From assembly GCF_004362805.1 (NCBI RefSeq), contig NZ_SNYF01000008.1, positions 248,001 through 312,000 on the forward strand: 64,000 nucleotides of DNA. The letters run 5' to 3'. The notes beneath the pieces are model-generated. The model was not told the origin of the DNA. It did no database searches and was given only the letters and a program-made list of their open reading frames with translations. The stretch is from Algoriphagus boseongensis. GTDB lineage: Bacteria; Bacteroidota; Bacteroidia; Cytophagales; Cyclobacteriaceae. Positions 14,320 through 57,174 of the stretch are shown here, one piece after another; the stretch's first letter is position 1, and each line of letters opens with the position of its first letter. The position numbers were made by a program, and so were the translations under genes.

Positions 14320-14341
14320 AGGTTGGGAGGTTTAAATTCTC

Positions 14342-14349: not shown

Positions 14350-14410
14350 TCTCCTTTTATTTCGATTTTTGCTACGTCATTTAGCGTATTTTTTTGCTTT
14401 TAATCTCCTG

Positions 14411-38472: not shown

Positions 38473-41400
38473 TCAATAAAACACGACAGGACTTAATTCA
38501 ATCATAAGCTCTTTAAGTCTGGCTTTTTCTTCCGAATCCAAATCAACCGCATTAAGGGCTTCGATCAATTCGTCTTGGCGAGGCTGTCCAAATGTCAATC
38601 GATAAAATGCCAGTACCTTAATCAAATGCTGATATCTCTCAATATCTCGGCTGTAAGGGTATAATGGCACAAACCTTTCAATCTTTAAATTTTCTAAGGG
38701 TTCCGTATGCCAATACGGGACAAGGTCACATGGGAATGTACTTTTAGCCTTTTCACTTTCTGCCAGAGTAAAGATTTCCTCCCAAATGCTGGAAGAACCT
38801 TTTAACTCCTCCTTGTATTTAGCTGCCAAATTTTGTCGTATGATCAATCCTTTATACCTGTTAATTCTGCCCTCACGCTGCTCAAAATCAATGGGATTAG
38901 ATGGTAAATTCCAATGAAAAATCTTCTTACAATAGAAGTGGAAATCCAGCCCTTCCTGTCCTACTGAAGTTGATGCTAAAACAAAAGGCCGAAAAGGGGA
39001 ATTGAAAGCTTGTCTAACGTTTATTGATCTACCTGAACTTTTGGCCGTATTAAATTTTTGGCTGCCAAAATCAATGGCAAAGTGTGCTCTCATGGAATTT
39101 CTTTTCGTCTTATTTCCTTCTATTTTCTTTTTAAATTCTGAGAAACCTTCAGCTTCAATGCTTGCTGTCCTAATGGATAAGACATCGGTGACAAATTCCG
39201 TGATCTCTTTTAAAGTGGAAAGGTTCTCACAGTCTTTCAGCATAAAGAAATACTCATCCAACATGGCTTGTATATTCCCATCAATACCATATTGGAGGCA
39301 TTGTTCCCAATAGTTTTTCTTATCAGAGGTAAATAACCTCAGAGTGGCTATACTTTCAGGTTTATTGTATAGTGTTAAAAATGCCGAGGCAATATGAAAG
39401 GCATGCCCCATTGATTCCTCATTAGATCCAAATAACCTGGACAAAGCTCTGAGTGAGCAAATGGCAGGTGAACCTAAAACCAAATCAACCATCATCTCTG
39501 CTAAAGGGCCAACTTTTGATTCGTTTAAATAGGGTAATGGGAGTGGCACTTTGGACAAATATGCATCTTTGGCGGTATCAAAGTGTATTTGTTTTCCACT
39601 TGATTCGGTGTGATCATTTGGCGTTTCGCTATCAGGATCAGCTGTTCCTGAAGGCATACCTTTTTCGAACCAGGACCTCGTGAGATCCTTGGAGATTGAA
39701 ATCTTTTCCAACAATAATGGCGCGCACCATTCCCAGTCTTGATCATTTCCTTCCCCTAATACCTGAAGACGAATTTCGTCAGAAAGCAATCTTTGAATCA
39801 GCTTTTCTTTCAATTCCTCCTTTATATCTCTTAAGCTTGATTTTTTAAAAAGATTCGATGAAGGATCATAAAGATTTGCCAAAAACAAAGACGGAAACAA
39901 CAATAGAAAATTATTCATCTGCTTAGCTCCTTGGTCTCCGACATCTATTTTAAAAGTAAGCTGTGGAATAGGAGTTCTTTTTTTCTTAGGGGGATGGAAA
40001 TATTGTCTTTTATCCAATGTCCATTCCCTTTCTGAAATAGTCTTTTTGTTTCCTACTGTAAGCCGTTCAGCTTCATATGAAACCAAGGACGCAACCATTT
40101 TAGGAACCATTTTCCAGGATGAAAAAAGAAGGGTTTTACTATATCCCGAACTGCCTTTAAATGCCCCTTGAAATTCATAATAGGGTAAGGACGATGGTAT
40201 CCATAAATATTTCCAACCTCCTGATTCAATTGTCTCCTTTAACAATAAGCGAATCTTAGCATTGGGAATACTCTTACCCTTCTTAGGAACCAATTCTTTA
40301 TATTGATTGATTGCATTTAGATCAAGCCATAAGTCTTTTTTTTTGGTTAAAAGTTTTATTAGCTCCGGATCAAACTTAGCTTTTTCTTCCAGCTTTTTTT
40401 TATGAGCATAAGAGTCAAGGAATGAAAGTGGGTATGGACAGGACTTCACATATTCCATGGGAATATTCAGATTCGTATCGTGTACTTCATTCAAATACTT
40501 CGTAACCTGATCAAACGCTATGAACTCCTGAATATCCTCCTTATTGATTTCCAAAGGTTCATGGTGGGTGTTAAGAATATTAGATCCGGAGTTTGTTACC
40601 AAAAACCTTTCTGTTCTTGACAAAGCCGACCTTAAATGATTCTCAAGATTGCTTTTGGTTTGATAGGCCTGATCGAAAGTGTGTTTTAATTTATTTGGAT
40701 GCCTGATAACCTCGAAAAACGCTTTTCTGTCTTTTTCATAATTATGCCAAAACTCATCTGTGTTTTCTCCGATCAAAAATCTAAGAACGGTTTCAAATTC
40801 TTCATGGTGCACTTCGCCCGATATTGCATCAAAATCATTGGTATATGGCTTGAAGGGGGTCGCTGATAACATAATTACTTTTGAAGAACCAATTGAGAAA
40901 ATATCCCTTGCGAGCTCTATAGCAGGACTTAAATTCTCTGTTTCCTCAGTATGATCAATCAATTGCTTGAAACGCTGAAATTCATCCAGGACAAATACAT
41001 CTGCCTCCAGGAATTCCAGACAGGCTTTGGAAAGTCTGAATCTTAATTCACTGATCAATTCATTATAAAAATCATAGTCTCTCCAATTTTTTGAATTAAT
41101 TTCTATTTCACATAATTTCTTTAGTATAGTCCAAAGCTTCATTGGATACCTTATACCTGTTTCACGAAAACAATTAGGTAATAATTCGGGACTTACAAGT
41201 TCATCTAATTGATCTTTAAAAAGCTTTTTTACTCCTCTTCTCAAACCTCTAACTTTACTATCATTTTCTTCAAAATCACTTATTCTATTTTTCCAAGTTT
41301 CTTCATTTACTCTGCCTTTAAGGATGTATTTAAAAGTTTCAGAATTTGACTGAATGTCCTTGTAACCAATTAGGAGTCTATATAATAGGAACCTTTCATC

Positions 41401-41829
41401 GGCTTTCCCCGCACTTGTCTTGTTGTCAAATGAAGTAGCTGGTGTAAATGCCTTTATGCTAAAATTAAAGTTTGAATTGAATTCCTTTTGCTCATAAGCC
41501 AATGCTGTTATCCGATCGTCTTCATTTGAATAATCGATGACAGAAGGATCACTCGTGAAATTTAATTTCTTAAGATTCTGTTTGGCCAAAGCCTGATTAG
41601 AACAGACATATACAACCTTAAAAGACTTTTCCCCTTTAGACTTTTCGAAAGTGTCCCAAAAAGCTTTTGCCAGAAGACCTTTAGTTACAATAGTTTTTCC
41701 CAGACCAACTTCATCCGCAATCAACATTCGGTTTCTTCCCCGAGTATAAAGTTGATCATATACATAATCAACAGTCTTCTTTTGGAAGTCTTTTAATCCA
41801 GACAAAGTTTTTTCAATCTGTTCCTTCAT
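38473..41829 (-). CDS. SF2 helicase-like ATPase of a DUF6361/PLD defence-type module
   Basis: The 1118-aa protein has a Walker A 'ADEVGLGKTIVTKG' (K45) like SNF2 or DISARM-type helicases, a DExx box written DEFQ ('DVFVLDEFQRFKQL'), and C-terminal motifs V/VI 'TSVGQEGLDFHFYC' and 'DFEQREGRINRYKG'. It is likely a DNA translocase with large insertions between the two RecA lobes. Its start is 3 nt from the stop of the PLD gene and it is the last gene of the trio. The Walker A and Arg-finger region (QREGRINR) are intact, so it should hydrolyse ATP. A run of nine T (A on the coding strand) lies at 40336-40344. Confidence 0.88.
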   Translation of the reverse strand: MKEQIEKTLSGLKDFQKKTVDYVYDQLYTRGRNRMLIADEVGLGKTIVTKGLLAKAFWDTFEKSKGEKSFKVVYVCSNQALAKQNLKKLNFTSDPSVIDYSNEDDRITALAYEQKEFNSNFNFSIKAFTPATSFDNKTSAGKADERFLLYRLLIGYKDIQSNSETFKYILKGRVNEETWKNRISDFEENDSKVRGLRRGVKKLFKDQLDELVSPELLPNCFRETGIRYPMKLWTILKKLCEIEINSKNWRDYDFYNELISELRFRLSKACLEFLEADVFVLDEFQRFKQLIDHTEETENLSPAIELARDIFSIGSSKVIMLSATPFKPYTNDFDAISGEVHHEEFETVLRFLIGENTDEFWHNYEKDRKAFFEVIRHPNKLKHTFDQAYQTKSNLENHLRSALSRTERFLVTNSGSNILNTHHEPLEINKEDIQEFIAFDQVTKYLNEVHDTNLNIPMEYVKSCPYPLSFLDSYAHKKKLEEKAKFDPELIKLLTKKKDLWLDLNAINQYKELVPKKGKSIPNAKIRLLLKETIESGGWKYLWIPSSLPYYEFQGAFKGSSGYSKTLLFSSWKMVPKMVASLVSYEAERLTVGNKKTISEREWTLDKRQYFHPPKKKRTPIPQLTFKIDVGDQGAKQMNNFLLLFPSLFLANLYDPSSNLFKKSSLRDIKEELKEKLIQRLLSDEIRLQVLGEGNDQDWEWCAPLLLEKISISKDLTRSWFEKGMPSGTADPDSETPNDHTESSGKQIHFDTAKDAYLSKVPLPLPYLNESKVGPLAEMMVDLVLGSPAICSLRALSRLFGSNEESMGHAFHIASAFLTLYNKPESIATLRLFTSDKKNYWEQCLQYGIDGNIQAMLDEYFFMLKDCENLSTLKEITEFVTDVLSIRTASIEAEGFSEFKKKIEGNKTKRNSMRAHFAIDFGSQKFNTAKSSGRSINVRQAFNSPFRPFVLASTSVGQEGLDFHFYCKKIFHWNLPSNPIDFEQREGRINRYKGLIIRQNLAAKYKEELKGSSSIWEEIFTLAESEKAKSTFPCDLVPYWHTEPLENLKIERFVPLYPYSRDIERYQHLIKVLAFYRLTFGQPRQDELIEALNAVDLDSEEKARLKELMIELSPVVFY

Positions 41830-41832
41830 AGG

Positions 41833-43665
41833 TTACTTTTTGGGTACAAACTCTTTAAAAATTGACCAAAACTTTTCGAATTCATCATCAATTATCTCCT
41901 TTTCTTCCTGCTTCTCTGATTTCAATCGCTCCACCAAATCATCCACGGCCTTTAACCTTGATGGATTTCTGCTTGAGGCGAGCATCATTTTTTCAAATAA
42001 AGGAGTGCCATCCAAAAATCCATTTTTACCTAAGTTACCATCAGCAGCTTTTTTGACATTTGGATCTGAAATAAGACTTGTCTCTTCTCCGGTGAGCAAG
42101 AATGTGAGGTACTTCAAAAACTTATCCCTATTGTCAATAATCAAAGAGAAAATCCGACCCAATCTTGATTCGGGCAATTCTACATCCATTTCCAGCAAAA
42201 AAGAACTCAGCTGAATATCATCCTTGTAGATCGTGAAAACTATGAAAGGACTCAACTCCGCTTCTGAGTATGGTCCAAATGAATAGATTTCATTTATTTC
42301 ACCCGCCTTGATTAAATAAGGCTTTTTAGAATTTTCTACAAGGGGTTTTAGTGTAATTTTAAAGCCCTCTTCAAGTTTGAGCTTTCTTGCATCGTAATTC
42401 ATGAAATAGCCAAAACTTGATCGTTGCTCTGATTCTTCAATTCTACCTTGGAGCTTGGCTTTTGAAATCGAGTACTTTAGTTTTCTGATCTGGAGATCAA
42501 GGTTTATAGTTGAAGGCTGATCCACTCCTTCTTCTAAGTCATAAGGTTCAAACAATTTGATACCTTTCGAATCTGCCAGTTCACCAGTCAATTGCTTCTT
42601 GATGGAAAAAGGCTTAAACCTGTCTTTCCCTTCCGAAACCAGTCGTATTAAAAATTCAATATTTCTTTCCATGGCAGGATCTGTACAATTGGCTGAACCG
42701 ATAAACCAATTTGACTTTCCATCCCTTAGTCCAATAAAAAATTTAGCGTGAAGTCCCTGATCCACACCATCTGATGATGCCTCATCAACAGAGTCTAAAT
42801 TTATCGCATACTCTAAAACAGGAGAGAATTTCCATAACTCAAACTTGTTCTGTAAAACTGCCCTATCAATCCCATCCAACGCTTCCTTTGAACTGAATAA
42901 AGCAATCGGCTTCTTGGTTTTTTGTTTAAAATGTTCAAGTGTTTTATTGTCCAGAAATGGGGAGACTATCAGAAGTTGATCCCAATCCTCAAACACTAAA
43001 GGAGATTTTACAATGGCATTATTTTTAAATCTATGGTTAATTCCAATTGGATGAAATTTTATCTGCTGAACACCATCAGGCAACTTGAATTTTACCTTTG
43101 CCAGTTCGAACAGAAATTTTCTATCGATACGTTTTTTAGTATTGGAATACAACTGTTCTATAAAATCAATTAAAGTTTGATTTTCTTCAAAAGCTTCATT
43201 GCCAACCACACCCATAGTTGAGAAAGCCATATCCCAGGATTGGTCAAATGTCAAATTCCGGCTGGTGACCATCAACCTGTAGACGGCAGATAAACCTTCT
43301 TTTTCATACCGCGCTATCCAGACTTTGGGATGAAAGGATTGATTATCCTTTTTCATTTGGACTTGTACGATTCCATTCTCCCAATAGGCCATCAGCGGAT
43401 GGTATTTCTTAGGAACCTTGATCTGGCCTTTTTGACAAAAAAGTGTGATTTTCTTAGATGCATTCGTTATGGCATCCAACATATCATAGCGGATCTGATC
43501 AGGATCGCCTTCTATAGGCTGGGCATAAAAAAGGGAAACTGGAATCAGCATTAGGGCTTCCATATCCAATGAATACGTAGTACCTATAGCTGCACTCAAT
43601 TCATAGCCATCAGGTGGAGCCAATTGACTTCCATAATCCACTCTGTTTTGTTTCGGATCTAACAT
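41833..43665 (-). CDS. Phospholipase D-superfamily protein with two HKD motifs
   Basis: The 610-aa protein has two PLD signatures. The first is H112-P-K in 'FHPKVWIARY' with a following 'TSRNLT'. The second is 'GLHAKFFIGL' with 'WFIGSANCT'. Two HxK/N pairs in one chain make a full active site, as in PLD-type nucleases or phospholipases. It sits between the DUF6361 gene (6-nt gap) and the helicase gene (3-nt gap). PLD plus helicase pairs occur in several anti-phage modules, so nuclease activity on foreign DNA is the best guess. The C-terminal ~150 residues are unrecognised. Confidence 0.88.
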   Translation of the reverse strand: MLDPKQNRVDYGSQLAPPDGYELSAAIGTTYSLDMEALMLIPVSLFYAQPIEGDPDQIRYDMLDAITNASKKITLFCQKGQIKVPKKYHPLMAYWENGIVQVQMKKDNQSFHPKVWIARYEKEGLSAVYRLMVTSRNLTFDQSWDMAFSTMGVVGNEAFEENQTLIDFIEQLYSNTKKRIDRKFLFELAKVKFKLPDGVQQIKFHPIGINHRFKNNAIVKSPLVFEDWDQLLIVSPFLDNKTLEHFKQKTKKPIALFSSKEALDGIDRAVLQNKFELWKFSPVLEYAINLDSVDEASSDGVDQGLHAKFFIGLRDGKSNWFIGSANCTDPAMERNIEFLIRLVSEGKDRFKPFSIKKQLTGELADSKGIKLFEPYDLEEGVDQPSTINLDLQIRKLKYSISKAKLQGRIEESEQRSSFGYFMNYDARKLKLEEGFKITLKPLVENSKKPYLIKAGEINEIYSFGPYSEAELSPFIVFTIYKDDIQLSSFLLEMDVELPESRLGRIFSLIIDNRDKFLKYLTFLLTGEETSLISDPNVKKAADGNLGKNGFLDGTPLFEKMMLASSRNPSRLKAVDDLVERLKSEKQEEKEIIDDEFEKFWSIFKEFVPKK

Positions 43666-43671
43666 ATTTGA

Positions 43672-44910
43672 TTATTTGGGATTCCGGATATCGTTTATAA
43701 TCACCTTAGCTTGCCTAAACCTATATTCAAAATGCCTTAGCCCTATCCATTCTTTTTCTTTTACATCGTGAAGTTTTTCTGGAAATATTCGTGCTTTTCC
43801 TCCTTTTACACCAAACTCTTGATTGGTGATTATCCTTTTTAAGGATTTCTCATCTTCAAATCCTTGATTAGCCATTTTCCAAAATTCCTTAATGAATAGG
43901 ACAGTCTCGTCCCTATTGACTTTACCAAGACTGAAAATTTCATCAGGATTAAAAGCATTACCCAGCATCAAATTATCTAAGATTCTGTTTTTCCACGATT
44001 CCCATTCATTCAAATAAAATCCATTCCCAAACTTCTTTTCCTGGATCATCACATTATAAAACAGATGACTACCGTACATCAATTCTGAAAAATCATGGGC
44101 CAATTGTATTTCCTTAAAAATCGGGGATGGCATTTTTAAGCTTTCACAAGCCGTTGCGAATTCGCTGAAGTTATCAGCTGCCGAAAAAACATTCCATATT
44201 TTATCTTCCTCAACCAATAGGCTAAGCAAAGTTTTATTTGCCCTGCTTTTGATATGATCCTTTAATATCTGTGCTTCTCCCTCGTCCAATTCAATGGTCA
44301 AATTGTTTCTCCAGTCCTTTTTGTAGGGAATCTTAATCCTGAAGATATTCTCAAAATCCACTTCAGCATCATCCTTGGTCACATCATCTCCATTAGATGA
44401 AGAAGAAAGCAGGTCAGAAAGAGTTCTTTTTGCGCAATTCTTTAAAAAAGATTCAGCACCAAGACCTCTTGTGTCGATTAAACCAAAAGTGTATAAGCCA
44501 TTCCAATAAATAGCAGAAGGTCTTCTGGCAATTCTTTCAGTTTTTTTTTTACTTATCCCGATAACCCCATCTCCATCTTGATACTTTGGTGCCAATTCCC
44601 ACATTATTTCATGCTCAGTATCATCCAAGAATTTGGAAGGACTGATTTTCTTTTTCTGACCAGGAGGTAGCAACTGGTAATCCCAGAGGATATAAGGGAT
44701 GTAAAAGAAGTATTTTGCTTTGGTCTGGATGGTACTGATACCAGGAAACATCCTGTCTGCTAAAATATCCCTTACGGTTCCAAGACCAAGCTCATCTACC
44801 ATTCCTTCAAATTTGAGTAGATCGAGTACTGCACCTACCTTGTTTCTTTGCTCTTTGGAAAAATCTATCCAGCCAAAAGAGGTAGTTAAAGTTAAGTCGT
44901 TGACATCCAT
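43672..44910 (-). CDS. DUF6361 family protein
   Basis: The 412-aa protein is recognised by its conserved N-terminus: 'SFGWIDFSKEQRNK', 'DELGLGTVRDILADRMFPG' and 'STIQTKAKYFFYIPYI'. DUF6361 has no assigned activity but recurs beside PLD and helicase genes. It is the first gene of the minus-strand trio. A run of ten T (A on the coding strand, encoding KKK) at 44541-44550 is a plausible slippage site that could switch the gene on and off. Confidence 0.85.
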   Translation of the reverse strand: MDVNDLTLTTSFGWIDFSKEQRNKVGAVLDLLKFEGMVDELGLGTVRDILADRMFPGISTIQTKAKYFFYIPYILWDYQLLPPGQKKKISPSKFLDDTEHEIMWELAPKYQDGDGVIGISKKKTERIARRPSAIYWNGLYTFGLIDTRGLGAESFLKNCAKRTLSDLLSSSSNGDDVTKDDAEVDFENIFRIKIPYKKDWRNNLTIELDEGEAQILKDHIKSRANKTLLSLLVEEDKIWNVFSAADNFSEFATACESLKMPSPIFKEIQLAHDFSELMYGSHLFYNVMIQEKKFGNGFYLNEWESWKNRILDNLMLGNAFNPDEIFSLGKVNRDETVLFIKEFWKMANQGFEDEKSLKRIITNQEFGVKGGKARIFPEKLHDVKEKEWIGLRHFEYRFRQAKVIINDIRNPK

Positions 44911-45145: not shown

Positions 45146-45760
45146 ATGGATCAACTCAACTTATTTGGACTTTTTTCAAACCCAAACGAACCTGTTCAGA
45201 TCAATGGGGGATCCTATATTTATATCCCTGATTTTTTCCCTCATTCAAAGGCAAGTCAATACCTCAAGGCTTTTATAGAGACGATAGAGTGGAATCAAGA
45301 AGGAATGATGATGTATGGAAAATATGTGAAGTTCCCAAGATTAACTGCCTGGTATGGAGATAACGACAAACCATATTCATTTTCAGGCATAACCCTTCAG
45401 CCAAAGCCTTGGAATACTGAGCTTCTTGAAATTAAGAAGTTAATAGAACCTTTGTCGGGAACTACTTTTAATAGTGTTTTATTGAATCGTTACCGAGATG
45501 GGAGCGATTCGATTTCGTGGCACACTGATGCTGAAAAGGAATTGGGCAGAAATCCCATAATTGCCTCTGTGAATTTCGGTGCCGAAAGGGTATTTCAACT
45601 AAAGCATATGAAAACCCAAGAACGAATTGACATTCTTTTAAAGCATGGCAGTCTTTTGATCATGATGGGGGAACTTCAGCATAATTGGCTACATCAAGTA
45701 CCTAAAACTCAAAAAATAATTGGAGAGCGAGTAAACCTGACTTTTAGAACTATTAAATAG
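45146..45760 (+). CDS. AlkB-like 2-oxoglutarate/Fe(II) dioxygenase
   Basis: The 204-aa protein has the AlkB layout: 'LLNRYRDGSDSISWHTDAEK' with iron ligands H126 and D128, the third ligand H183 in 'NWLHQVPKT', and the 2-oxoglutarate-binding arginine plus family end 'GERVNLTFR'. AlkB oxidatively removes methyl groups from damaged bases (1-methyladenine, 3-methylcytosine) in DNA or RNA. It starts a tight trio: the next gene begins 1 nt after its stop. A housekeeping repair role is possible, but the coupling suggests work with the RecQ fusion. Confidence 0.92.
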   Translation: MDQLNLFGLFSNPNEPVQINGGSYIYIPDFFPHSKASQYLKAFIETIEWNQEGMMMYGKYVKFPRLTAWYGDNDKPYSFSGITLQPKPWNTELLEIKKLIEPLSGTTFNSVLLNRYRDGSDSISWHTDAEKELGRNPIIASVNFGAERVFQLKHMKTQERIDILLKHGSLLIMMGELQHNWLHQVPKTQKIIGERVNLTFRTIK

Positions 45761-45761
45761 C

Positions 45762-48700
45762 TTGGAAAACTATATTACTAAAATCTTAGGATTGGAAACA
45801 CCATCCTTTGATACCATCCGTCGTTTTGCGATTCAGGAAATAGCTTCCTTTTCAGAAGCCAAAAAAAAGGATCTTTTTGACAGATTAGATAGAGGGCTGG
45901 CTTTATTGGATGATCACCTCACCCTTTGTCAATACATGAATTCCTTCGGGAAAATGCATAAGGCAAAGCTTCAAGATGCATTCAAAGAATTACCTTCAGA
46001 ACTCTTCGATCAAAAATTTGATGTGATTGACTGGGGATGTGGTCAAGGGATGGGCAGTATCAATCTATTTGATCATATTCTCAAGCGAGGGAAATCTTTA
46101 AATGTTAGGAAGGTTACCTTAATTGAACCCTCCTCCAAAGCTTTGGAAAGAGCCAGACTGCATACTTCTGTTTATTTGAACAAGGAGGTAGAATTGGTTA
46201 CTATCAATAAGTTTTTTGAATCTATTTCCAAGGAAGAGATCAAGGGGTATCCTGACATTCCTGTGATCCATATTTTTTCCAATATTCTTGATGTAGCTCA
46301 GATTGATCTTAAATATTTATCCAGGCTGATTGATTCAACTGTTCTTTCAGATAATTTTTTAGTTTGTGTCGGCCCTCTCAATCCTGGTAATCAAAGGATT
46401 GATGCCTTCATGAGCTATTTTGATAAAAAGCTTATTGATCTGATTTTTGAAAAAGAAGATCCTTATTTCTATGAAAAATGGACCTTTAAGTGTAAACTTT
46501 ATAAGCTTGAAGTCAATGAAATAGGTCATTTGATTCCAATCGAGTACTTTCCACCGGTTCAGTTTCAGGCAGGGTACGTATTGGATATAGTTAGGGATCA
46601 AGTGAAAGATTCTTACTTAGCTGAGCAATTAAAATTTATTTCACATTTTGAAGTTGCTGCTCCTTTTGATTTGGGTGCCAGTGTCTATGAAGACATACAT
46701 CCTATTCTTGCTGTTCTTAATAATATCATTACTCGAGGTGTCCCAACCAAACCGAGCATTCTTGTCGAGGAAGTTTTTTCCAAGTGTTTTGGGCTAACTG
46801 ACCGGTCGATCAGATTAGGAGGGATTTCATTTCCATCTAAACCTAATGTAAGCCTTAAGGGTGTTGAAAAAATAGTTAGGTTCGAGCGGGTAAATCTTGA
46901 GCATTTAAGTGAATATGAACTTGTCCTTGCTCAATTGATTTTATCCCCTTTAGCCATAGGTCGGTTTCATAAGATTTTGATTGAAGCACTGATTACGGGT
47001 CATATCAGTTTGAAGTCAAAAGTCTGGAACCTTCTTATTGAAGAGGCAGATGTTCCTTTTGCTGCATTGGCAATCGAAGATTTTAAGCAGCTTTTTACCA
47101 ATTTAACAGAATTGACCTTTGAGTATGATGGGTTGAAGCTTCCTGAAATCAATCTTACCATTATCGGAAATGATCTATTTAAAGATTCTGGTTTGCATTT
47201 GGGCCATCCAGTTCATGAGACCCTACCTAAGGATAAGTCAAGTGTGGGTTTTGACTTGGTATTCACTTTATCCATGCTTAAAGCTGTGGATGAAAAAATT
47301 GAAGGATTCAGTTCATTCAAGGCTAAAAACAACTGTTATTTCAATACCCGTAATATTCAAAATTACAGATCAAAAAGGCAGATTTATACCTCCTCTTTGA
47401 TTAAATATAAAAACCTTGTAAAAAAAGATACAAGGGGTAACTATCAGGAGATTGAAGAGAATGTCACAAAACTGACTTATTTCCTTCAATTACTTTTTCG
47501 AAAGGAAAGCTTCCGCCCTGGTCAACTCCCGATCTTGGATAGGGCATTGCAAAATTTACCGGTAATTGGACTTCTTCCTACAGGGGGAGGTAAGTCTTTG
47601 ACTTATCAGATTCCTGTTTTGATGCAGCCCGGAATAGCATTGATTGTAGATCCTTTAAAATCTCTAATGAAGGATCAGTATGATGGTTTGCTGGCAGCAG
47701 GGATCGATTCCTGTACATATATCAATTCTTCTTTGACTACTGAAGAAAAAAAGAAAAGAGAAGATGAGCTTGAATCCTCTCAACTCCAGTTCGTTTTCCT
47801 TTCTCCTGAAAGACTTTCAATACTATCCTTCAGAAAGAGGCTCTATCACATGCATTCTTATAATGTTTACTTTTCATATGGAGTCATCGATGAAGTTCAT
47901 TGTGTTTCGGAATGGGGACACGATTTCAGATTTTCGTATTTGCACCTTGGAAGAAACCTCTATAATTATGTTCGGGCAAAGGAAGGCCCAATTTCCCTTT
48001 TTGGACTTACCGCGACCGCATCCTTTGACGTGTTAGCAGATGTAGAGAGGGAACTCTCTGGAAATGGAGCCTTCGATTTGGATCCTGATACCATAGTCAG
48101 GTATGAAAATACAAACAGACTTGAACTTCAATACAAAATTGAAAAAGTACGGGTTGAATTCAAGGATGATGAGTATTATGATAGGAATAAAAAAATGCCT
48201 GCTTTTCTCCCCCGAGCCAAGAATATTACGGACAAGTGGACTCCGTTCAAATTCAAAGCAGCATTCTTACGAGATTATGTCGGAGAAATTCCATTTCATT
48301 TAAATTATCTCCAAGAACCTGGTGCTCTGGCTAAAATTTTCGATCGATATGAACAAAGGCAGGAAGCCTCCAGTCTGAGTCCATCTGAAATAAATGTCTA
48401 CGTTCCTGCCGATTTTTATTCTGAAAGAGATACCTACGAGCATGCTGGGATTATTTTCTGTCCACATGCTTCAAAGACTGATTTATCTGTTGAGAAAAAC
48501 GCCGAAAACTTAAGGAATGATATAAGTCCGGATATAGGGTCATTTACTGGTCAAGATGATGATGATTCTTCTATAGAAAATCTCGAAAAATTCAGGGATA
48601 ACCAATTGCCAATCATGGTTGCTACAAAAGCTTTTGGGATGGGGATTGACAAACCTAATGTAAGGTTTACAGTCAATATGAATTACTCAAGTTCACTAGA

Positions 48701-50261
48701 AGCTTTCGTCCAAGAGGCCGGGCGATCTGGGAGAGATAAGCGTACGGCATTGTCTGTTATTTTGGTTTCGGATTATAGGCTTGCAAGGATCAATCCCAAC
48801 TATTCAGATCAAAGCTTTCCATTGGGAATCATCAAAAACAAATGGTTTTATGAAGAGGATCTTGATCAGATTTTGAATTATTATAATCTAAGAATTCCTT
48901 CAGCGTACATTACCATTGCCACTCCAAGCAATGATGTTGTCAAGCTACATTGTACGAAAGACAATAGAATGTTCGCGTTTAGTGAATGCAGTACTGAATG
49001 CAGTGAATTCAAAAAATGTAACCTTCGAAAAGTTTCTCCAGAGTCTAAAGGTTGGAAAACCGAGTTGGAGCTGGTTCAGGAAATTAAAGCACAAGGACTT
49101 AGTATAGGGAAAAGGAATTTTCAATATCTAAATCCGGATTATGATACAGTGATGTATTTCTTCGGTAATTCCTTCAAGGGAGACATCGAGGAAAAGCGAT
49201 CCATGTTTGAGTTGCTGAGTCAAATAAGGGTTGCGGTGGAGACATCAGAGGATCAAAAAGAAGTTTCATTTTTTCAAGGGTTTTTAACACCCTTGTTGAA
49301 AGCGATAGTGGGAGAAAGGTTAATCGTATACGTCCCATATACAGAGGAAAACAAAACTGATCTTTCTAAGTCGATTTACCGCATGTGTTGTATCGAATTG
49401 ATTGAGGATTTCACGCAAGACTATGCCAAAAACCAGTATAGGATCGAGGTAGTAAGGAAAGAAGAGGGAGGATATTTTGAAGGCCTTGAAAGGTTTCTTC
49501 AAAGGTACTATACGCCAGATCGAGCCAAATTGGAAATACAGCGGGCAATAAATTTTCCACTAAACAAAGAAGCAGAAAGCAAAATCGCTGAGGAGATTTT
49601 CAAATGTTTAGGCTTTCTGACGGAGTTTGTTTATGATAAAATTTCCGAGAAGCGGAAGCGGGCCATTGACGACATGCGAAACTTTTGCATGGAAGGTTTG
49701 CAAGAGGACAAAGATTGGACAGACCTCAATGAAGATTTAAAAGACTTCCTATTCTATTATTTCAACTCCAAGTTTGCCAAGACAGATTATGTTACGGACC
49801 AGGGAGAACCGTTTTCATTAATGGTGGACACTGAAGAAGGTAAATACTCCCATGAGTCGATTCTGTTCAAATTCCTTCGAGTAATTGAGGATGATGTGGT
49901 GGGAATCGGTACTCCACTTGATAATGTAAAACATCTTTATGGTGCTGTCCGCCTGATCAGCAGATCTTTGACTGACGAAAACCCAACTCTTGCCTTGTTG
50001 GAAGCTTTTTGTTTAGCATACCTTCAGGTCAAAGAAAATGAGAACTTAAAAAACCAACTGGTAAATAGATATGCTGCAGGCATGATTGAATTTTATGAAC
50101 GGATTGAAATTGAATCAGAATTTTGGGATCTGTTCCAAGTTTACAATGAAAGAATTTCACCTTATTTGGATGAAGAGCAGCTGGAAACTTTGATTGAGGA
50201 AACAAGCTTCCTCATTCATGCTAATCAATTGAAAAAAATAACAACAAACTATCTTGCCTAA
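45762..50261 (+). CDS. Methyltransferase-like / RecQ-type helicase fusion
   Basis: The 1499-aa protein combines two modules. Residues ~60-230 resemble a Rossmann methyltransferase: motif I 'VIDWGCGQGMGS' (D90-G96) and motif II acidic 'VTLIEPSSKALERA'. Residues ~575-1010 form a RecQ-like helicase: Walker A 'LLPTGGGKSLTY' (K611), DEVH box D710-H713 ('VIDEVHCVSEWGHDF'), motif III 'LFGLTATAS', motif VI 'QEAGRSGRDKR'. A Cys4 cluster C1064/C1076/C1080/C1086 matches a RecQ zinc site. The remaining ~400 C-terminal residues are unrecognised. The TTG start 1 nt after the AlkB stop suggests coupling; the next ATG would leave the motif I region intact but cut the N-terminus. Confidence 0.88.
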   Translation: MENYITKILGLETPSFDTIRRFAIQEIASFSEAKKKDLFDRLDRGLALLDDHLTLCQYMNSFGKMHKAKLQDAFKELPSELFDQKFDVIDWGCGQGMGSINLFDHILKRGKSLNVRKVTLIEPSSKALERARLHTSVYLNKEVELVTINKFFESISKEEIKGYPDIPVIHIFSNILDVAQIDLKYLSRLIDSTVLSDNFLVCVGPLNPGNQRIDAFMSYFDKKLIDLIFEKEDPYFYEKWTFKCKLYKLEVNEIGHLIPIEYFPPVQFQAGYVLDIVRDQVKDSYLAEQLKFISHFEVAAPFDLGASVYEDIHPILAVLNNIITRGVPTKPSILVEEVFSKCFGLTDRSIRLGGISFPSKPNVSLKGVEKIVRFERVNLEHLSEYELVLAQLILSPLAIGRFHKILIEALITGHISLKSKVWNLLIEEADVPFAALAIEDFKQLFTNLTELTFEYDGLKLPEINLTIIGNDLFKDSGLHLGHPVHETLPKDKSSVGFDLVFTLSMLKAVDEKIEGFSSFKAKNNCYFNTRNIQNYRSKRQIYTSSLIKYKNLVKKDTRGNYQEIEENVTKLTYFLQLLFRKESFRPGQLPILDRALQNLPVIGLLPTGGGKSLTYQIPVLMQPGIALIVDPLKSLMKDQYDGLLAAGIDSCTYINSSLTTEEKKKREDELESSQLQFVFLSPERLSILSFRKRLYHMHSYNVYFSYGVIDEVHCVSEWGHDFRFSYLHLGRNLYNYVRAKEGPISLFGLTATASFDVLADVERELSGNGAFDLDPDTIVRYENTNRLELQYKIEKVRVEFKDDEYYDRNKKMPAFLPRAKNITDKWTPFKFKAAFLRDYVGEIPFHLNYLQEPGALAKIFDRYEQRQEASSLSPSEINVYVPADFYSERDTYEHAGIIFCPHASKTDLSVEKNAENLRNDISPDIGSFTGQDDDDSSIENLEKFRDNQLPIMVATKAFGMGIDKPNVRFTVNMNYSSSLEAFVQEAGRSGRDKRTALSVILVSDYRLARINPNYSDQSFPLGIIKNKWFYEEDLDQILNYYNLRIPSAYITIATPSNDVVKLHCTKDNRMFAFSECSTECSEFKKCNLRKVSPESKGWKTELELVQEIKAQGLSIGKRNFQYLNPDYDTVMYFFGNSFKGDIEEKRSMFELLSQIRVAVETSEDQKEVSFFQGFLTPLLKAIVGERLIVYVPYTEENKTDLSKSIYRMCCIELIEDFTQDYAKNQYRIEVVRKEEGGYFEGLERFLQRYYTPDRAKLEIQRAINFPLNKEAESKIAEEIFKCLGFLTEFVYDKISEKRKRAIDDMRNFCMEGLQEDKDWTDLNEDLKDFLFYYFNSKFAKTDYVTDQGEPFSLMVDTEEGKYSHESILFKFLRVIEDDVVGIGTPLDNVKHLYGAVRLISRSLTDENPTLALLEAFCLAYLQVKENENLKNQLVNRYAAGMIEFYERIEIESEFWDLFQVYNERISPYLDEEQLETLIEETSFLIHANQLKKITTNYLA

Positions 50262-50263
50262 CT

Positions 50264-50887
50264 ATGAATAATTCATTGGTCCAACAGACTTTGGTAGACA
50301 TTGAACAAAATTTAAAAAATCTCCAGTCAGCCAGGGAGCAAGTTAACTCAGTTTCATTATCCAGTCAGAAATTGACCGAAACCATTTCGTCACTTGTCAA
50401 AAACTTCAAAACACTTGAAGCAGACTTCCTAAAGGATAGCAAAGAATTTTCTGATAAGATTGAAAAAGAATTTGTCAGGTTTCAAACAAACATGGAAACT
50501 GGAGCCAAAAATGCCATCAATCAATCCTCCAAAATCCATCAAAAACATGGAGTTGAAATAGACAAAACTATCGATAAGCTATCGGAGCTTCAAAAGGCTG
50601 TTTTGGCATTGAAAAATGATCTCTCAGGATTTGATTTGGCGTCCCAGTTCAATCCCATTATTGAGGCGCTTCATTTGATGGAAGGACGAATCGATGCTTT
50701 CAAAATAGAGATGAATTCGCTCACATCGAGATTAAATCGCCTGGCCGATAATATGTTGAAAGACCAACAAGAGTGGGCTACCAAACTTGATCAAAAGTAT
50801 GATTCAATTAAAAGCGCAATCCAATACACTCAAATATTCATTGCAGTAGCGACGACCGTTTTGGCCAGCCTTATCCTTATCTTCTAA
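50264..50887 (+). CDS. Tail-anchored coiled-coil protein
   Basis: The 207-aa protein is mostly charged helix with heptad-like spacing ('LVKNFKTLEADFLKDSKEF', 'KLSELQKAVLALKNDLSG') and no Cys. The last ~20 residues form one hydrophobic segment ('FIAVATTVLASLILIF') that runs to the C-terminus, so it should be anchored by its tail with the coiled coil in the cytoplasm. It starts 2 nt after the RecQ fusion, which argues for cotranslation and a shared complex. A membrane-tethered sensor or scaffold is possible (inference). Confidence 0.85.
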   Translation: MNNSLVQQTLVDIEQNLKNLQSAREQVNSVSLSSQKLTETISSLVKNFKTLEADFLKDSKEFSDKIEKEFVRFQTNMETGAKNAINQSSKIHQKHGVEIDKTIDKLSELQKAVLALKNDLSGFDLASQFNPIIEALHLMEGRIDAFKIEMNSLTSRLNRLADNMLKDQQEWATKLDQKYDSIKSAIQYTQIFIAVATTVLASLILIF

Positions 50888-50989: not shown

Positions 50990-51568
50990 ATGAAGTTAAT
51001 TGAATTCATTATCATCAATTCCCAAAAAGAAGAATCTCCTTTGGGAGATTTTTGCTCAGACATCCTTCGAGATCCTGATTTCCCATTTGATTCCAAAATG
51101 GCTGACCAATTTCAATATCTTAAGTCTGTTGCTCTGTTGAATGGTCTTTCAGAACAATATGAGATTCTTAAGAGTGAATATGAATACTACATTCAAGACC
51201 TCGACTACGAAAGAAACCATGGTATCAACTCCAAACCTGATGATAGTATCAGGTTCAAATCAGGTGCTTGGGCTGACTTAAAATCAGATTTCCAATTTCA
51301 ATCAGTGCTGTTCGTAAAAGGAAGTAAGGAGTACTATAAGGCCTACCTGATTGATGATTTCCAAAAGAAGGCACTATTTCTCGAATTTAATTCACCAATG
51401 CAAAATCCTCAGCCTCGCATTTTTGAATTCATGAAAGCCGAATTGTTACCAAAAGGGGAGCTACATTCTACTGAATCGGCATTAGTAATTTTTAAAATGC
51501 TCCGAGACTCTCCTTTGATCTTGAACAAGTTTCTGATTGAAAAAGCCATAGATTTATTGTTGCCTTAA
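50990..51568 (+). CDS. Unknown protein with YozE/SAM-like N-terminus
   Basis: The 192-aa protein begins with a segment 'PLGDFCSDILRDPDFPFD' that resembles the YozE SAM-like fold, a small helical domain of Gram-positive proteins. The rest contains 'SVLFVKGSKEYYKAYLI', not recognised. It lies between the tail-anchored gene (102-nt gap) and the BREX operon, in the same direction. No enzyme motif is seen; its role, if any, in either neighbour is unknown. Confidence 0.7.
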   Translation: MKLIEFIIINSQKEESPLGDFCSDILRDPDFPFDSKMADQFQYLKSVALLNGLSEQYEILKSEYEYYIQDLDYERNHGINSKPDDSIRFKSGAWADLKSDFQFQSVLFVKGSKEYYKAYLIDDFQKKALFLEFNSPMQNPQPRIFEFMKAELLPKGELHSTESALVIFKMLRDSPLILNKFLIEKAIDLLLP

Positions 51569-51667: not shown

Positions 51668-51819
51668 ATTTAAGCCATTCAAAAAGAGGTGGTTGGCCGA
51701 GAGGCTCGTTTATTCTAGGATTATAGTAGGTCCGAGAGGATAGGAAATAGCCTCCTTGCCAAAAGGCATTAGAAAAAAATCGGTAAGAGAGGGAATGTTT
51801 CAATAAAGAAGATTTGTCA

Positions 51820-52404
51820 ATGAGTAATAACACATACGAGTTCTCATTTACCGCATGTTCACTCCATATCCAAGAAATGATTCAATTTCTCAAGGTGGAA
51901 CAAGGGCTAATACCAGTTCTTGAAGGAGGGAAGTCGGCCTCTATCAAAAGGAAAAATCAGGAATTCAGAAAACGACTTGAAACATTAAACCCTGACCAAA
52001 CTAAAGCTCTCTTAGAAGGAGATTTAATTACCCAACGGCAACTGGCTTATCTTTCCGTTTGTAAAATCTACGGGTTTTTTAGGGAATTTGTCTTGGAGGT
52101 TCTCCGAGAAAAAATGATCTTAATGGATTATCAGGTGACAGAGGGTGAATACCTATCTTTTTTTAGACGAAAAATGATGGATCATCCCGAGTTGGAGGAG
52201 TTAAGTGAAACTACTGAGAAGAAAGTAAAGCAAGTGGTATTTCGGATTTTGGCTGAGGCAGGAATCATCAATTCTGCCAAGGAAAAAGTTTTGCAATACC
52301 AGATTTTAGAACCTAAAATGATTCAACTGATTAAGCAGGATCATCCTATGTGGTTTGAAGTTTTTTTATTGAACGATTTTGAAATTAGCAATTACGCTCG
52401 CTGA
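51820..52404 (+). CDS. brxA: BREX protein BrxA (DUF1819)
   Basis: The 194-aa protein matches BrxA/DUF1819: start 'EFSFTACSLHIQEMIQFLKV', 'LITQRQLAYLSVCKIYGFF', 'EVLREKMILMDYQVTEGEY'. BrxA is a small helical protein that binds DNA in type I BREX systems and is required for phage resistance in several of them. A TTG 6 nt upstream is possible, but the ATG at 51820 is preferred. It is the first gene of the operon; brxB begins 2 nt after its stop. Confidence 0.93.
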   Translation: MSNNTYEFSFTACSLHIQEMIQFLKVEQGLIPVLEGGKSASIKRKNQEFRKRLETLNPDQTKALLEGDLITQRQLAYLSVCKIYGFFREFVLEVLREKMILMDYQVTEGEYLSFFRRKMMDHPELEELSETTEKKVKQVVFRILAEAGIINSAKEKVLQYQILEPKMIQLIKQDHPMWFEVFLLNDFEISNYAR

Positions 52405-52406
52405 GT

Positions 52407-52985
52407 ATGAATCAAGTCAGAAGACAATTTGACCATATTTTTAAAGTGGTCTCAAGTGAAGGATTCCTTCGCAAAGAATCCCTGGGGGGAGAAATTCCAT
52501 TTTTTATCGCGGCTTACCCGGCAAAAGATGAAATTGCTGTCAGGGATGAAATTCGGATGCTTAAAAATAAATTGACCTCCAAAGGGATTGAAATATTGGA
52601 GATTAACTTGTTTGATTTAACCTGTGAGATACTTGAAGAAAAAGGTGGCGTAGAGCGGATGTTTCGTGTAGAGAGGACAAAGGGACCTGAGAAATTTTTA
52701 CGGGCACTCCAATCCTCCTTGAATATTCATGAGGTCCTGCTTCCCAAAATCAAAGCTATGATTGAGGAATCTGGGGCTCAGCTTTATTTTCTAACTGGAA
52801 TCGGCTTAGTATTCCCATTTATCCGTTCCCATAACGTATTGAATAATTTACAATCCATAGCCAAGGATTCCCCTACAATTACCTTTTTTCCTGGGGAATA
52901 CAACGGCCATACGCTCAATCTTTTCGGGTTGCTAAAAGACGACAACTATTACCGGGCATTTAATATTGAAAAAATAGAAGCATGA
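52407..52985 (+). CDS. brxB: BREX protein BrxB (DUF1788)
   Basis: The 192-aa protein has the DUF1788 pattern: 'FFIAAYPAKDEIAVRDEIRM', 'EILEINLFDLTCEIL' and 'TITFFPGEYNGHTLNLFG'. BrxB is a core type I BREX component with no defined enzyme activity, thought to scaffold the complex. Its stop overlaps the brxC start by 4 bp. Confidence 0.93.
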   Translation: MNQVRRQFDHIFKVVSSEGFLRKESLGGEIPFFIAAYPAKDEIAVRDEIRMLKNKLTSKGIEILEINLFDLTCEILEEKGGVERMFRVERTKGPEKFLRALQSSLNIHEVLLPKIKAMIEESGAQLYFLTGIGLVFPFIRSHNVLNNLQSIAKDSPTITFFPGEYNGHTLNLFGLLKDDNYYRAFNIEKIEA

Positions 52986-55900
52986 AGATTAATCAGTTTT
53001 TTCAAAAGGATATTCATCGCAATATCGAAACGGTTATCAAGGCCGACGATCGTGAGAACATATCTGATGAAGTGGCAGAATATGTGATCACCCATGAAAT
53101 CGGGAATAAGATCAGAGACTTTTTCAGTGCCTACAATGACTATGCAGGGGCCAATGGAGTTTGGATCTCCGGTTTCTTTGGTAGTGGTAAATCTCACTTA
53201 CTCAAGATTCTTTCCTATGTTTTGGAAAACAAAGAGTTTGATGGTTACTACAGCGGAGAACTCTTTGCAGAGAAGATAGAGAACGATCACATACTGAAAG
53301 CAGATGTCATTTCTGCCACCAAGGTTCCTTCTGAATCAATTCTTTTTAATATTGATCAACAAGCTCAGATCACTTCAAAAGCCAATCAGGATGCCATTTT
53401 AAAGGTATTCTATAAGGTGTTCTATGACCACCTTGGATTCTATGGATTTCAACCCCATGTGGCGGAATTTGAGATGTGGCTGAAAAGAAATGGGCAGTTG
53501 GAAGAATTCACTTCCCGTTTTAATTCAAAGAGTTCGGCTCCTTGGGAGAAGGCACGAATTGATTATTTCGATCCAATGGTAACAGATACCATGGCGGAGG
53601 TTTTGGCAGACCTGAACGGGAAATCGGCTGCGGATTACGAAGATATTTTGGATCAAATTGAGGACAAAAGCAAGCAGTCAATCGATGACTTTTGTGATCG
53701 GGTGATGGAGTACATTAAGTCTCAAGGACCTCACTTTCGACTCAATTTCTTCGTAGATGAAATCGGGCAGTACATCAGTGAGAATACCAAACTGATGTTA
53801 AATCTCCAGACCATTGCCGAGACCTTGGCAATTAAAACCAAAGGACGTTCCTGGATTTTGGTCACCTCCCAGGAGGATATGGAGAAGGTGGTGGGAGATA
53901 TGAACAAGAGCCAACAAAATGACTTTTCACGAATTCAGGCTCGATTCAAAATCAAGATTCCCCTGACTTCTGCCAATGTGGATGAGGTAATCGAAAAGCG
54001 ATTGCTCAAAAAATCCGAACCTGCAACAGAACTCCTCAAAGACCTTTACCAAATAGAGCACGTTCACTTGGGAACCTTGATTTCCTTCTCAGATTCAGGG
54101 GTACAATTTAAAGGCCTGCAGGGGGATAAAGACTTTGTCAATAAGTATCCCTTCCTTCCATACCAATTTGATCTATTTCAACAGTGTAGAAGAGCCCTCT
54201 CCACACACAATGCCTTCCAGGGTAAACATGCCTCAGTAGGAGAGCGATCAATGCTTGGGGTATTTCAGCAAGTCATCAAATCTATAGGGGATAACGATGA
54301 AAAAACTATCGTGGGATTTGATCAGATGTATGAGGGTATCCGAAACGAACTCCGTGGAGAAATTCAAAGCTCCATTATTCTTGCCGAGAAGAATATTTCC
54401 AGTGACTTTGCCATACGTGTCTTAAAGACTCTCTTTATGGTGAAGTATTATTCCAGCTTCAAGCCGACTAAACGGAATATCTCAGTACTACTGATCGACT
54501 CTATGGAGGTAGATTTGAAGGCCCATGAAACGCTAATCGATGAGGCGCTGAATCTGCTCGAAAACCAAAGCTATATCCAGCGAAATGGGGAACTGTTTGA
54601 ATTTTTGACAGATGATGAAAAAGATATCGAACAGGAAATTAAGGAGGTGGATATTGATGATCAGGCCATTACTCAGCAGCTGAAAGAGTTATTTTTTGAT
54701 GAAATCATCAAGGATGGTAAAATCCAATATTTGGATAACAAACAGAACTATGACTTTACCTCCAAAGTCGACGGGGCTACGGTAGGAAGAGAAAAAGAAC
54801 TGGCCATAGAAATCATTACCGAAAACAATCCTGATTACGAAAATACGGTCTACATCTACAACCAGACTATGGGTAGTCCGATCATGAGGATGGTACTACC
54901 TCCCAATTCAATTTTCATTAAAGATCTGAAGATGTACCTGAAGACCAACAAGTACATCAAGCAAAATCAGACCACATCAGTCAAGGTAGAGCGAAGACGG
55001 ATTCTTCAGGATAAGCAAGTTCAAAACTCTGAGAGAAGAAGAAACCTGATCCTTTTGGCCAATCAACTTTTGGCAGGTTCGGATGTGATTATCAATGGAA
55101 CCAAACAGGAGATGGGAAGTCATTCTGATGGTAGGGCCCGAATAGTTCAGGCATTTCAGATTTTAGTCAAGACCGTATATCCCAATCTACGGATGTTAGG
55201 GCATGTTACCTATACGGAGGATACAATCAAGCAGATCATTTATTCTACGCAGAATGATCTTTTCCAAGTGGAACAAAATCTGACGGAGGCAGAGCAAGAG
55301 ATACTTACTCTGATCAATAGAAGGAAGATGAAATCTGACCGGACCAGCCTTTATGATCTGAAGGAAGTCTTAGGTTCTAAGCCTTATGGCTGGTATCCCA
55401 ATGCGGTGTGGTCGGTCACTGCTAAACTGTATAAGAGGGGTCAGGTAGAGCTCAAGCAGGATTCCAATCTCTTGGAAGACCGTGACGTACTTCAAGCCTT
55501 TCTGAATTCCGCCCAATACACCAATACTTTGGTGCAGGTACAGGAAGCGGAAGATCCACGTGCCGTCCGGGCACTAAAAGAACTCTATGGAGATGTATTC
55601 GATGAGAGCTGTCCCTATACTCTGGGTAAGGAAATCGCTACCGCTTTCAAGGAAAAGCTTAAGGCCTTGATCCAAGATATGGAGTCCTACTTCCGTCAGC
55701 GGAGTGATTATCCATTCTTGGCTGCCTTGGAGGAGCCTTTGGAGTCGATGAGAAAATTGGGTTCCAGGGATTATGCCCAGCTTTTGACTCAGGTCAAGGA
55801 GTACAAAGATGAGCTCCTGGACGCTAAAGAACTCCTGCTTGATCCCATTCGAAGATTTATGAACGGAGATCAACGCAAGATCTACGATGATATCCGAAAT

Positions 55901-56485: not shown

Positions 56486-57171
56486 TTGACAAGAATAAGA
56501 AAATCGATTTTTTCGATGATTTTACCTTAGAGTACTTTTCAAGAGGTTTTTCGAATATGCCGAAAAGGGATTTAGATGTTCTCATTTTTCATTTACTTGA
56601 AAAACATGGAGCATTTAAAGGAATGTCTAATTATGATATCGCCCGATTTCTACGAACTACACCGACCAAAGTAAAGTCTGCAAAATATGAATCCGTATTA
56701 AGGTTTGACTATAAAGATTTTGAAAAAGGAGATTATTTAAAATCAGCCTTAAGGGAATATTTTAAAAAACCGCTTTTACATTTCGACAATAATTACCTCT
56801 ATATGCAAATTGAAAACCCAGTTTTAATGGATGCATTGAAAGGGAAATTAAAAGAGGGTGGGTTATTTTTCGATGGTAGCTTCAATAGTGAAGTTATTAA
56901 GATGACCTCAGAGGGATATACTAAATTTATAAAAAAGATTGCCCTTGATGATCTTGGATCTAAATCTTCTAAAAAAGCTATTAAAGAATTTGAGAAGTTA
57001 GATGGAAAAACAGTTTCAGAAGTATCAGAAAAGATCTTTGAAGTGGCAAAAGAAAAGATTTTGGAAAAATCAATCGATGAGGGCTTTGAAATAATTAAAG
57101 ATCAAACTTTTAATTTTTTCTCAGAAAATTTTGAATCTATCTCTGAATTTGTAAAACCATTTTTTGAATAG
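56482..57171 (+). CDS. HTH-like protein inserted between brxC and pglX
   Basis: The 229-aa protein is not one of the known core BREX proteins. Residues ~25-85 form a helix-turn-helix-like region ('KRDLDVLIFHLLEKHGAF' then 'SNYDIARFLRTTPTKVKSAK'), and the rest is charged helix ('KKAIKEFEKLDGKTVSEVSEK'). Its start overlaps brxC by 4 bp and its stop is 3 nt from pglX, so it is translated as part of the operon. The base composition is clearly AT-richer than brxC and pglX, suggesting later acquisition. A regulator, an inhibitor or an accessory effector are possible. Confidence 0.85.
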   Translation: MIDKNKKIDFFDDFTLEYFSRGFSNMPKRDLDVLIFHLLEKHGAFKGMSNYDIARFLRTTPTKVKSAKYESVLRFDYKDFEKGDYLKSALREYFKKPLLHFDNNYLYMQIENPVLMDALKGKLKEGGLFFDGSFNSEVIKMTSEGYTKFIKKIALDDLGSKSSKKAIKEFEKLDGKTVSEVSEKIFEVAKEKILEKSIDEGFEIIKDQTFNFFSENFESISEFVKPFFE

Positions 57172-57174
57172 TAA

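Follow-up and report, generated by a model that had tools for sequence, protein, structure and literature searches.

A BREX-associated gene unit of Algoriphagus boseongensis in which a methyltransferase-like domain and an AlkB-type dioxygenase may stand in for the nuclease of a RecQ-like helicase family

The subject of this report is a unit of three genes spanning positions 45146-50887 of a 64,000-nt stretch of DNA from Algoriphagus boseongensis (the window; all positions refer to its forward strand), which code for an AlkB-type 2-oxoglutarate (2OG)-Fe(II) dioxygenase, a fusion of a methyltransferase-like (MT) domain with a RecQ-like helicase, and a coiled-coil protein (Table 1). The unit had been described in an earlier note made from the sequence alone, and its coordinates, its location on the + strand and the spacing of its genes (1 and 2 nt) have all proved correct; the same order of genes has been found again in three further genomes, represented by L025 (Flavobacterium tegetincola), L026 (a contig of G726, a Chryseobacterium metagenome-assembled genome) and L091 (L and G numbers designate the loci and genomes compared), and is therefore not a chance juxtaposition. 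In the 36 helicases of the family that were compared, an AlkB gene accompanies exactly these four, which are also those whose helicase bears the MT domain and lacks the nuclease block carried by most of their relatives; AlkB is no general partner of the family (4/36 loci).

The ligands ascribed to AlkB by the earlier note, H126, D128 and H183, are present according to a motif script, together with R195 and R201, so that both the HxD...H pattern and the 2OG-binding arginine are found. The protein matches Pfam 2OG-FeII_Oxy_2 (PF13532) with 115.1 bits (cut-off 31.2) and its nearest PDB profile matches, among the sequences listed, are ALKBH3 (3.1e-43) and ALKBH2 (2.9e-37), both nucleic-acid demethylases; its scores with the equivalog models of E. 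coli AlkB lie below the cut-offs (31.1 vs. 267 and 28.4 vs. 231.05). Compared with the L025 and L026 counterparts, AlkB is 67-68% identical, the MT domain 53-57% and the whole helicase 57-58%; of these, AlkB is conserved best and is therefore no decaying passenger. Cyanobacterial plasmids, among them pSYSA of Synechocystis PCC 6803, carry the same AlkB subfamily next to a conserved protein of ~290-300 aa with a GxGPxxE motif; this neighbour, present in four of five cyanobacterial loci (L117, 4498-6021; L057, 5935-7513; L060, 4944-6484; L118, 3332-5079) and missing from L119, shows 21-32% identity among the four, has no PDB match and possibly represents another methyltransferase-like family, with no detectable kinship to the MT domain of the window (profile probability 0.2). 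In all, 85 plasmid records have an AlkB match, 8 of which were looked at.

As for the helicase, the RecQ motifs reported earlier are indeed present (the Walker A lysine K611, DEVH at 710, SEWGHDFR at 716 and GRSGRDK at 987; with GGGKS, they cover helicase motifs I, II and VI and a RecQ-type loop), but the curated RecQ cut-offs are missed. The core matches Pfam DEAD with 63.5 bits (cut-off 26) and Helicase_C with 53.9 (cut-off 23.5), and in the PDB it finds RecQ chains (best 2.3e-47); the NCBIfam RecQ models are not reached (209.2 vs. 219.8 and 246.4 vs. 640.2), and neither RQC nor HRDC is matched in Pfam at E up to 1, a divergent fold being possible. Assignment to canonical RecQ was rejected on account of the missed cut-offs and, given the NCBIfam shortfall and the lack of an RQC or HRDC match, "RecQ-like" is the safe name. 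The four-cysteine site is confirmed (cysteines 1064, 1076, 1080 and 1086), and a PDB profile search with the C-terminal domain gave no convincing relative.

Table 1. Features of the unit and of its flanks, in window positions.
Feature	Position	Strand	Basis
AlkB-type 2OG-Fe(II) dioxygenase, 204 aa	45146..45760	+	Pfam, PDB profile, PADLOC
MT/RecQ-like helicase fusion, 1499 aa, TTG start	45762..50261	+	Open reading frame (ORF), Pfam, motif script
N-terminal methyltransferase-like (MT) domain, residues 1-250	45762..46511	+	AlphaFold2, Foldseek, motifs; Pfam sub-threshold
Site (after residue 347) where most relatives have the DUF559/Vsr-like nuclease block, absent here	46802..46803	+	Alignments, hidden Markov model (HMM), Pfam scan
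Family-specific pre-helicase domain, residues 383-555	46908..47426	+	Conserved in family alignments
RecQ-like helicase core, residues 571-1006	47472..48779	+	Pfam DEAD, Helicase_C; PDB RecQ chains
Four-cysteine cluster C1064-C1086, possible zinc site	48951..49019	+	Motif script
Family-specific C-terminal domain, residues 1195-1430	49344..50051	+	Alignment of 13 members
Coiled coil, 207 aa; C-terminal hydrophobic anchor = last 17 residues, 50834-50884	50264..50887	+	Hydropathy
192-aa ORF between unit and brxA; unit membership doubtful	50990..51568	+	No family above cut-off (Pfam, PADLOC)
Flanking brxA, brxB, brxC, 229-aa ORF, pglX; outside unit	51814..60642	+	PADLOC
Flanking ZacC-, ZacB-, ZacA-like genes; outside unit	38473..44910	-	PADLOC 2.4e-293, 4.5e-146, 8.9e-83

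Relatives of the helicase were collected with residues 1040-1499 (matches in 19/395 genomes of the phylum) and with a C-terminal profile (11/395 genomes of the class and 8/240 of the family of G726); the genome draws overlap, and these counts include the genome of the window or G726. Plasmid searches add members from Haliscomenobacter, Rhodothermus, Salinibacter and enterobacteria. The set of 36 leaves out L038, which holds the same helicase as L045 (both are Rhodothermus plasmid pRMAR01), the partial or broken L031, L093, L095 and L097, and L024, a broken weak match; the broken reading frames of L095 and L097 lie at ~5973-10254 and 8729-12252, respectively. Less than 1 kb of upstream sequence is available for four of the 36 (L029, L030, L074 and L079), L074 and L079 being cut by contig ends. 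In L090 (12230-14734), a GmrSD-type protein with DUF4268 overlaps the start of the family helicase by 4 nt and may be an operon partner. A phage origin of the family was rejected: five scans of viral contigs found it in one record only (L052, L061, L108), while the MT domain was met there without a RecQ-like family helicase in L109-L111; the scans of the viral contigs for AlkB and for the pre-helicase domain confirmed no relative.

Most members contain, ahead of the helicase, an extra block with the pattern DF...E(I/V)DGxxH...D..R in the family alignment, a DUF559/Vsr-like nuclease that probably acts as their effector. It is found in 29 of the 36 helicases, 27 by an HMM and two (L077 and L094) by a motif seen by eye and by alignment; the HMM, built from 17 members, detected the block in 10 of 14 members added later. 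In 23 aligned blocks F96, E106, D108, G109 and D119 never vary and D95 and R122 hardly do, and Pfam DUF559 matches 20 of the 23 at E up to 0.1, exceeding its cut-off in L047. The fusion protein of the window gives no match to the block HMM, and the seven helicases devoid of the block are the window, L025, L026, L091, L033, L034 and L092. In the tree, the first four form one clade (support 100/100), to which L052, having both MT domain and nuclease, is sister (99/97), and the last three form a separate clade (100/100). Because the sister L052 retains both, the MT domain probably came first, and the simplest order of events suggested by the tree is a gain of the MT domain followed by loss of the nuclease in the AlkB-bearing line. 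Two side observations concern the other nuclease-less clade: the N-terminus of L033 resembles by eye a degenerate DnaQ-type exonuclease, where Pfam finds nothing, and upstream of the L034 helicase lies what looks by eye like a DarT/DarG-like pair (14070-15789; a 346-aa macro-domain protein and a 230-aa protein).

The partner that the family does keep is the coiled coil. Among the 33 helicases with downstream sequence (the contigs of L039, L076 and L079 stop short of it), 28 are directly followed by a coiled-coil ORF, and 26 of these 28 proteins carry a C-terminal hydrophobic anchor, which L042 and L043 lack; no same-strand ORF of coiled-coil type of at least 60 aa is listed downstream in L027, L028, L035, L041 and L073. 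In the window the third protein is strongly hydrophobic only in the C-terminal helix pointed out by the earlier note, which suggests that the coiled coil is anchored in a membrane. As judged from gene neighbourhoods, then, the conserved core consists of two genes, RecQ-like helicase and putatively tail-anchored coiled coil, usually together with the DUF559-type nuclease. Defence modules built around a helicase and bearing additional enzymatic domains have been described before; in the literature searched, which covers a minority of subscription papers and very few preprints, no description of the AlkB/MT/helicase set or of the two-gene core was found.

The setting of the unit is of the defence type, as genes of a bacteriophage exclusion (BREX) system and ZacABC-like genes flank it. 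To its left, on the opposite strand, the latter stand back to back with AlkB; to its right PADLOC recognises a type I BREX system, with brxA, brxB, brxC and pglX in the window and pglZ and brxL beyond its edge. The unit lies upstream of brxA, with a single 192-aa ORF in between, and the BREX core beside it is complete, so that the unit is an addition to BREX and does not itself consist of BREX core genes. In L025 the order is brxA, brxB, brxC, a 347-aa gene, pglX, AlkB, MT-helicase, coiled coil, pglZ and brxL, all on one strand; lying between pglX and pglZ, the unit is therefore inside the BREX operon. The first 28 kb of the window have a G+C content of 0.423, the remainder one of 0.380 and the unit one of 0.378. 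A scan of 10 proteins from eight hand-picked loci, which is no census, gave strong matches to defence families at five loci, weaker ones at L034 and L032 and none at L026, and restriction genes adjoin several family helicases at hand-picked loci. Taken together, gene content and order suggest that the unit is a BREX-associated, defence-type module.

The N-terminal domain was examined at the level of motifs and of predicted structure. The DWGCGQG motif is found at residues 90-96, as previously noted, and is joined by LIEPS and HIFSNILD, with D90, G92, G94 and E122 in place; all Pfam scores remain below the cut-offs (Methyltransf_31, 18.6 bits vs. 27). An AlphaFold2 model of residues 1-400, made from 4 sequences, has a mean predicted local distance difference test score (pLDDT) of 64.7 and a predicted template modelling score (pTM) of 0.63; residues 86-249 display the order of strands and helices of class I methyltransferases (block pLDDT 61-93), while 253-365 are unreliable, and the 50 Foldseek matches listed are mostly class I methyltransferases, without a clear nearest family. 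The Rossmann methyltransferase fold on which the earlier note had made its interpretation depend is thus the one predicted, and the domain may be regarded as a class I S-adenosylmethionine (SAM) methyltransferase-like domain with motif I, SAM binding and methyl transfer being putative.

The MT domain is not confined to the RecQ-like family. Thirteen loci were counted, including that of the window and the nearly identical pair L109 and L110, whose MT genes share 99.8% of their bases; an EgtD-like protein (L056) and weak MT matches in G212 and G292 were excluded. Besides the four AlkB-type helicases and L052, the domain is found as a stand-alone gene beside AlkB, without the helicase, on Moraxella osloensis plasmids (L053), as another stand-alone gene (L111), in a protein with Sel1 repeats (L055) and fused to UvrD-like helicases (L102, record MT836254; L109; L110), so that two unrelated types of DNA helicase carry it. 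In L102 (3917-7580) and L109 (4852-8466) a DUF1848 gene precedes the fusion with the UvrD-like helicase: the helicase is unrelated and the cassette the same. HMM scans of the neighbours of the 13 MT loci found AlkB in 5, DUF1848 in 7, both in none and neither in one (L112), where the MT protein (875-3258) lies beside a TIR protein with pentapeptide repeats. This association bears on the possibility that AlkB repairs host or self DNA damage arising during helicase action, independently of an MT domain that would serve as regulator or SAM sensor: AlkB is indeed of repair type, and the host genome has a second AlkB, on C1, so that such a function exists in the cell anyway; that second copy, on the other hand, makes mere repair less needed, and AlkB tracks the MT domain (5/13 loci, once without the helicase) and not the helicase (4/36), being replaced by DUF1848 in 7 loci, which leaves a pure repair role quite unlikely.

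DUF1848 proteins bear near their C-terminus a CxxxCxxC motif, invariant in 6 aligned sequences, and the same region gives a weak match to Pfam Radical_SAM (E 0.05), for which reasons DUF1848 is here called radical-SAM-like; a PDB profile search gave nothing convincing, an AlphaFold2 model from 2 sequences has a mean pLDDT of 50.6, and DUF1848 is not mentioned in the literature searched, within the scope given above. In L052, a C-terminal piece of DUF1848 (9648-9998) precedes the MT-nuclease-helicase gene, next to phage-like genes and without another copy in the record, and may mark a prophage border. COX1 was found in all three AlkB-type hosts searched (G000, G726 and G784), in one of two DUF1848/MT hosts (G374 but not G682) and in G284, whose MT domain has neither partner. 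Of 56 genomes drawn from the class, 54 have COX1 and 12 have PF13532, all with COX1; DUF1848 occurs in one, G226, which is one of the two COX1-less genomes of the draw, the other (G425) being 69% complete. This pattern fits an oxygen-independent role of DUF1848, although as a test it is weak and mixed.

The constant pairing of the MT domain with an oxidising or radical enzyme may also be read as serial modification, in which the MT domain and then AlkB would build a modified base or nucleoside by methylation and hydroxylation, the product being a self mark or the effector. Eukaryotic ALKBH8, which unites AlkB and methyltransferase domains in one protein for the modification of a tRNA base, offers a model, and the possibly methyltransferase-like neighbour of the same AlkB subfamily in four of five cyanobacterial loci is in keeping with it; yet AlkB is nearest to ALKBH3 and ALKBH2, no ALKBH8 chain appears among the 18 PDB sequences listed for it, the cyanobacterial partner has no detectable kinship to the MT domain, and a tRNA modification needs no helicase. 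On balance serial modification appears unlikely.

The helicase, the nuclease of its relatives and the restriction genes nearby point to an action on DNA; the replacement of the nuclease suggests that the role of effector passed to the MT domain, and a partner of demethylase type suggests a mark to be undone or finished. The reading preferred here, to which a probability of roughly 0.35 is assigned, is that MT domain and AlkB substitute for the lost nuclease effector on the helicase/coiled-coil core, in defence. The most likely scheme is then that of a writer, the MT domain, and an eraser, AlkB, for which confidence is moderate to low: the coiled coil would tie the helicase to the membrane, the helicase would open invading DNA, the MT domain would mark the exposed strand (or another nucleic acid), blocking its copying or use, and AlkB would take the mark off host nucleic acid, as an antidote. 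None of the observations made points specifically to base-modified phage genomes, the example of a target given in the earlier note. A bolder extension, in which MT and AlkB form a mobile pair of damaging methyltransferase and antidote demethylase, carried on varied DNA helicases in place of a nuclease and with DUF1848 as an oxygen-independent stand-in for AlkB, must be considered doubtful, and on the whole improbable.

Several observations weigh against the substitution of the nuclease by a writer and an eraser in defence. At the AlkB-type loci L026 and L091 no BREX gene was recognised among the surrounding ORFs examined, and 10 proteins scanned around them yielded matches to a cytosine methyltransferase and to a superfamily 1-type helicase (L054) and to a WYL regulator (L101). 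L033, L034 and L092 lost the nuclease and gained neither MT domain nor AlkB. The MT gene of L112 has no AlkB or DUF1848 in the 9 kb of sequence available (874 nt of it upstream) and that of L052 has only the C-terminal fragment of DUF1848, a finding difficult to reconcile with an essential antidote; in L055, the D of motif I corresponding to D90 is replaced by A. The substrate of the MT domain need not be DNA: the (D/N/S)PP(Y/F) motif of DNA amino-methyltransferases is missing from the MT alignment, as inspected by eye, and in hhalign the MT profile matches with a probability of 94.5, over 152 columns, a protein labelled EgtD-like (the label being the analyst's own reading of its sequence and of an EgtB-like neighbour), which hints at a small molecule or an amino acid as substrate. 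If so, the MT domain would be an EgtD-like methyltransferase, and MT/AlkB or MT/DUF1848 would make a toxin or signal metabolite, with the helicase as sensor; the fusion of the MT domain to an FGE-sulfatase domain in L113 speaks in favour of this, as does an enterobacterial plasmid member in which the same helicase core is joined to HAD modules and to weakly supported phosphoribosyltransferase-like ones. However, a generic methyltransferase also scores 70.2 in hhalign, AlkB is of nucleic-acid type, and two separate fusions, of unrelated kinds, join the MT domain to DNA helicases. A metabolite as product seems distinctly improbable.

Should the preferred reading, with MT domain and AlkB in place of the nuclease, be true, the family would be one of defence helicases with wholesale exchange of effectors, which may be a nuclease, modules of HAD/phosphoribosyltransferase type or, together with AlkB, a methyltransferase, and BREX would gain a possible accessory layer; what DUF1848 does, and what the AlkB copies of plasmids and defence islands do, would also become easier to approach. 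As the exchange is visible in one small clade with L052 as an intermediate, both the sequence of events and the roles of the parts are testable. The mobile writer/eraser pair, if true, would mean that restriction can work by damaging bases while carrying its own repair, and a function for DUF1848 would follow as a prediction.

Among known systems, the majority form of the family, helicase with DUF559, shares with the window the downstream tail-anchored coiled coil, whereas the window lacks the DUF559/Vsr-like block. The AlkB of the window matches the 2OG part of the PADLOC CARF_2OG model (8.6e-57), and its subfamily is therefore already represented in a database of defence systems; of the 353 positions of the profile, the match takes in 191-350, and no CARF domain is present here. 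In DarTG, a toxin that modifies bases by ADP-ribosylation is paired with an enzyme reversing the modification; the unit would act alike, as base modifier and reversing enzyme, but by methylation instead of ADP-ribosylation and without any relation in sequence, so that the likeness is one of analogy only. A 2026 survey of BREX associates reports many auxiliary nucleases (PMC12839542), and the present unit resembles such auxiliary effectors, extra genes in or beside BREX operons that include PD-(D/E)XK nucleases fused to superfamily 2 helicases; it differs from them in that the main text of that survey does not contain RecQ, AlkB, 2OG, dioxygenase or DUF559.

The closest parallel is offered by RqlH/RqlI of E. 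coli, in which a RecQ-like helicase with an extra enzymatic domain is accompanied by an operon partner gene, the fused domain being toxic and restrained by the partner, according to the parts of the report consulted (PMC4670107); a RecQ-like helicase whose toxic domain is held back by a partner thus has a precedent in RqlH/RqlI, to which the ShosTA and PsyrTA pairs are related (PMC9122126). The differences are that the phosphoribosyltransferase (PRTase) lies at the C-terminus of RqlH and the protein of the window has no PRTase match (Pfam, E up to 1), that the neighbours are here AlkB and a coiled coil instead of a DprA-like partner, and that in the same parts of PMC4670107 coiled coil and DUF559 block go unmentioned. 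With no PRTase match and no DprA in the locus, membership of the RqlHI type was rejected for the unit. An enterobacterial form of the family, found on plasmids or chromosomes of Raoultella, E. coli and Klebsiella, has DprA upstream, and its fusion gene occurs in 7 of 5426 E. coli genomes; on the plasmid locus L047 (5104-11233), DprA is followed by a HAD/weakly PRTase-like/DUF559/RecQ fusion and a tail-anchored coiled coil. This locus links the helicase family to the RqlHI-type pairs.

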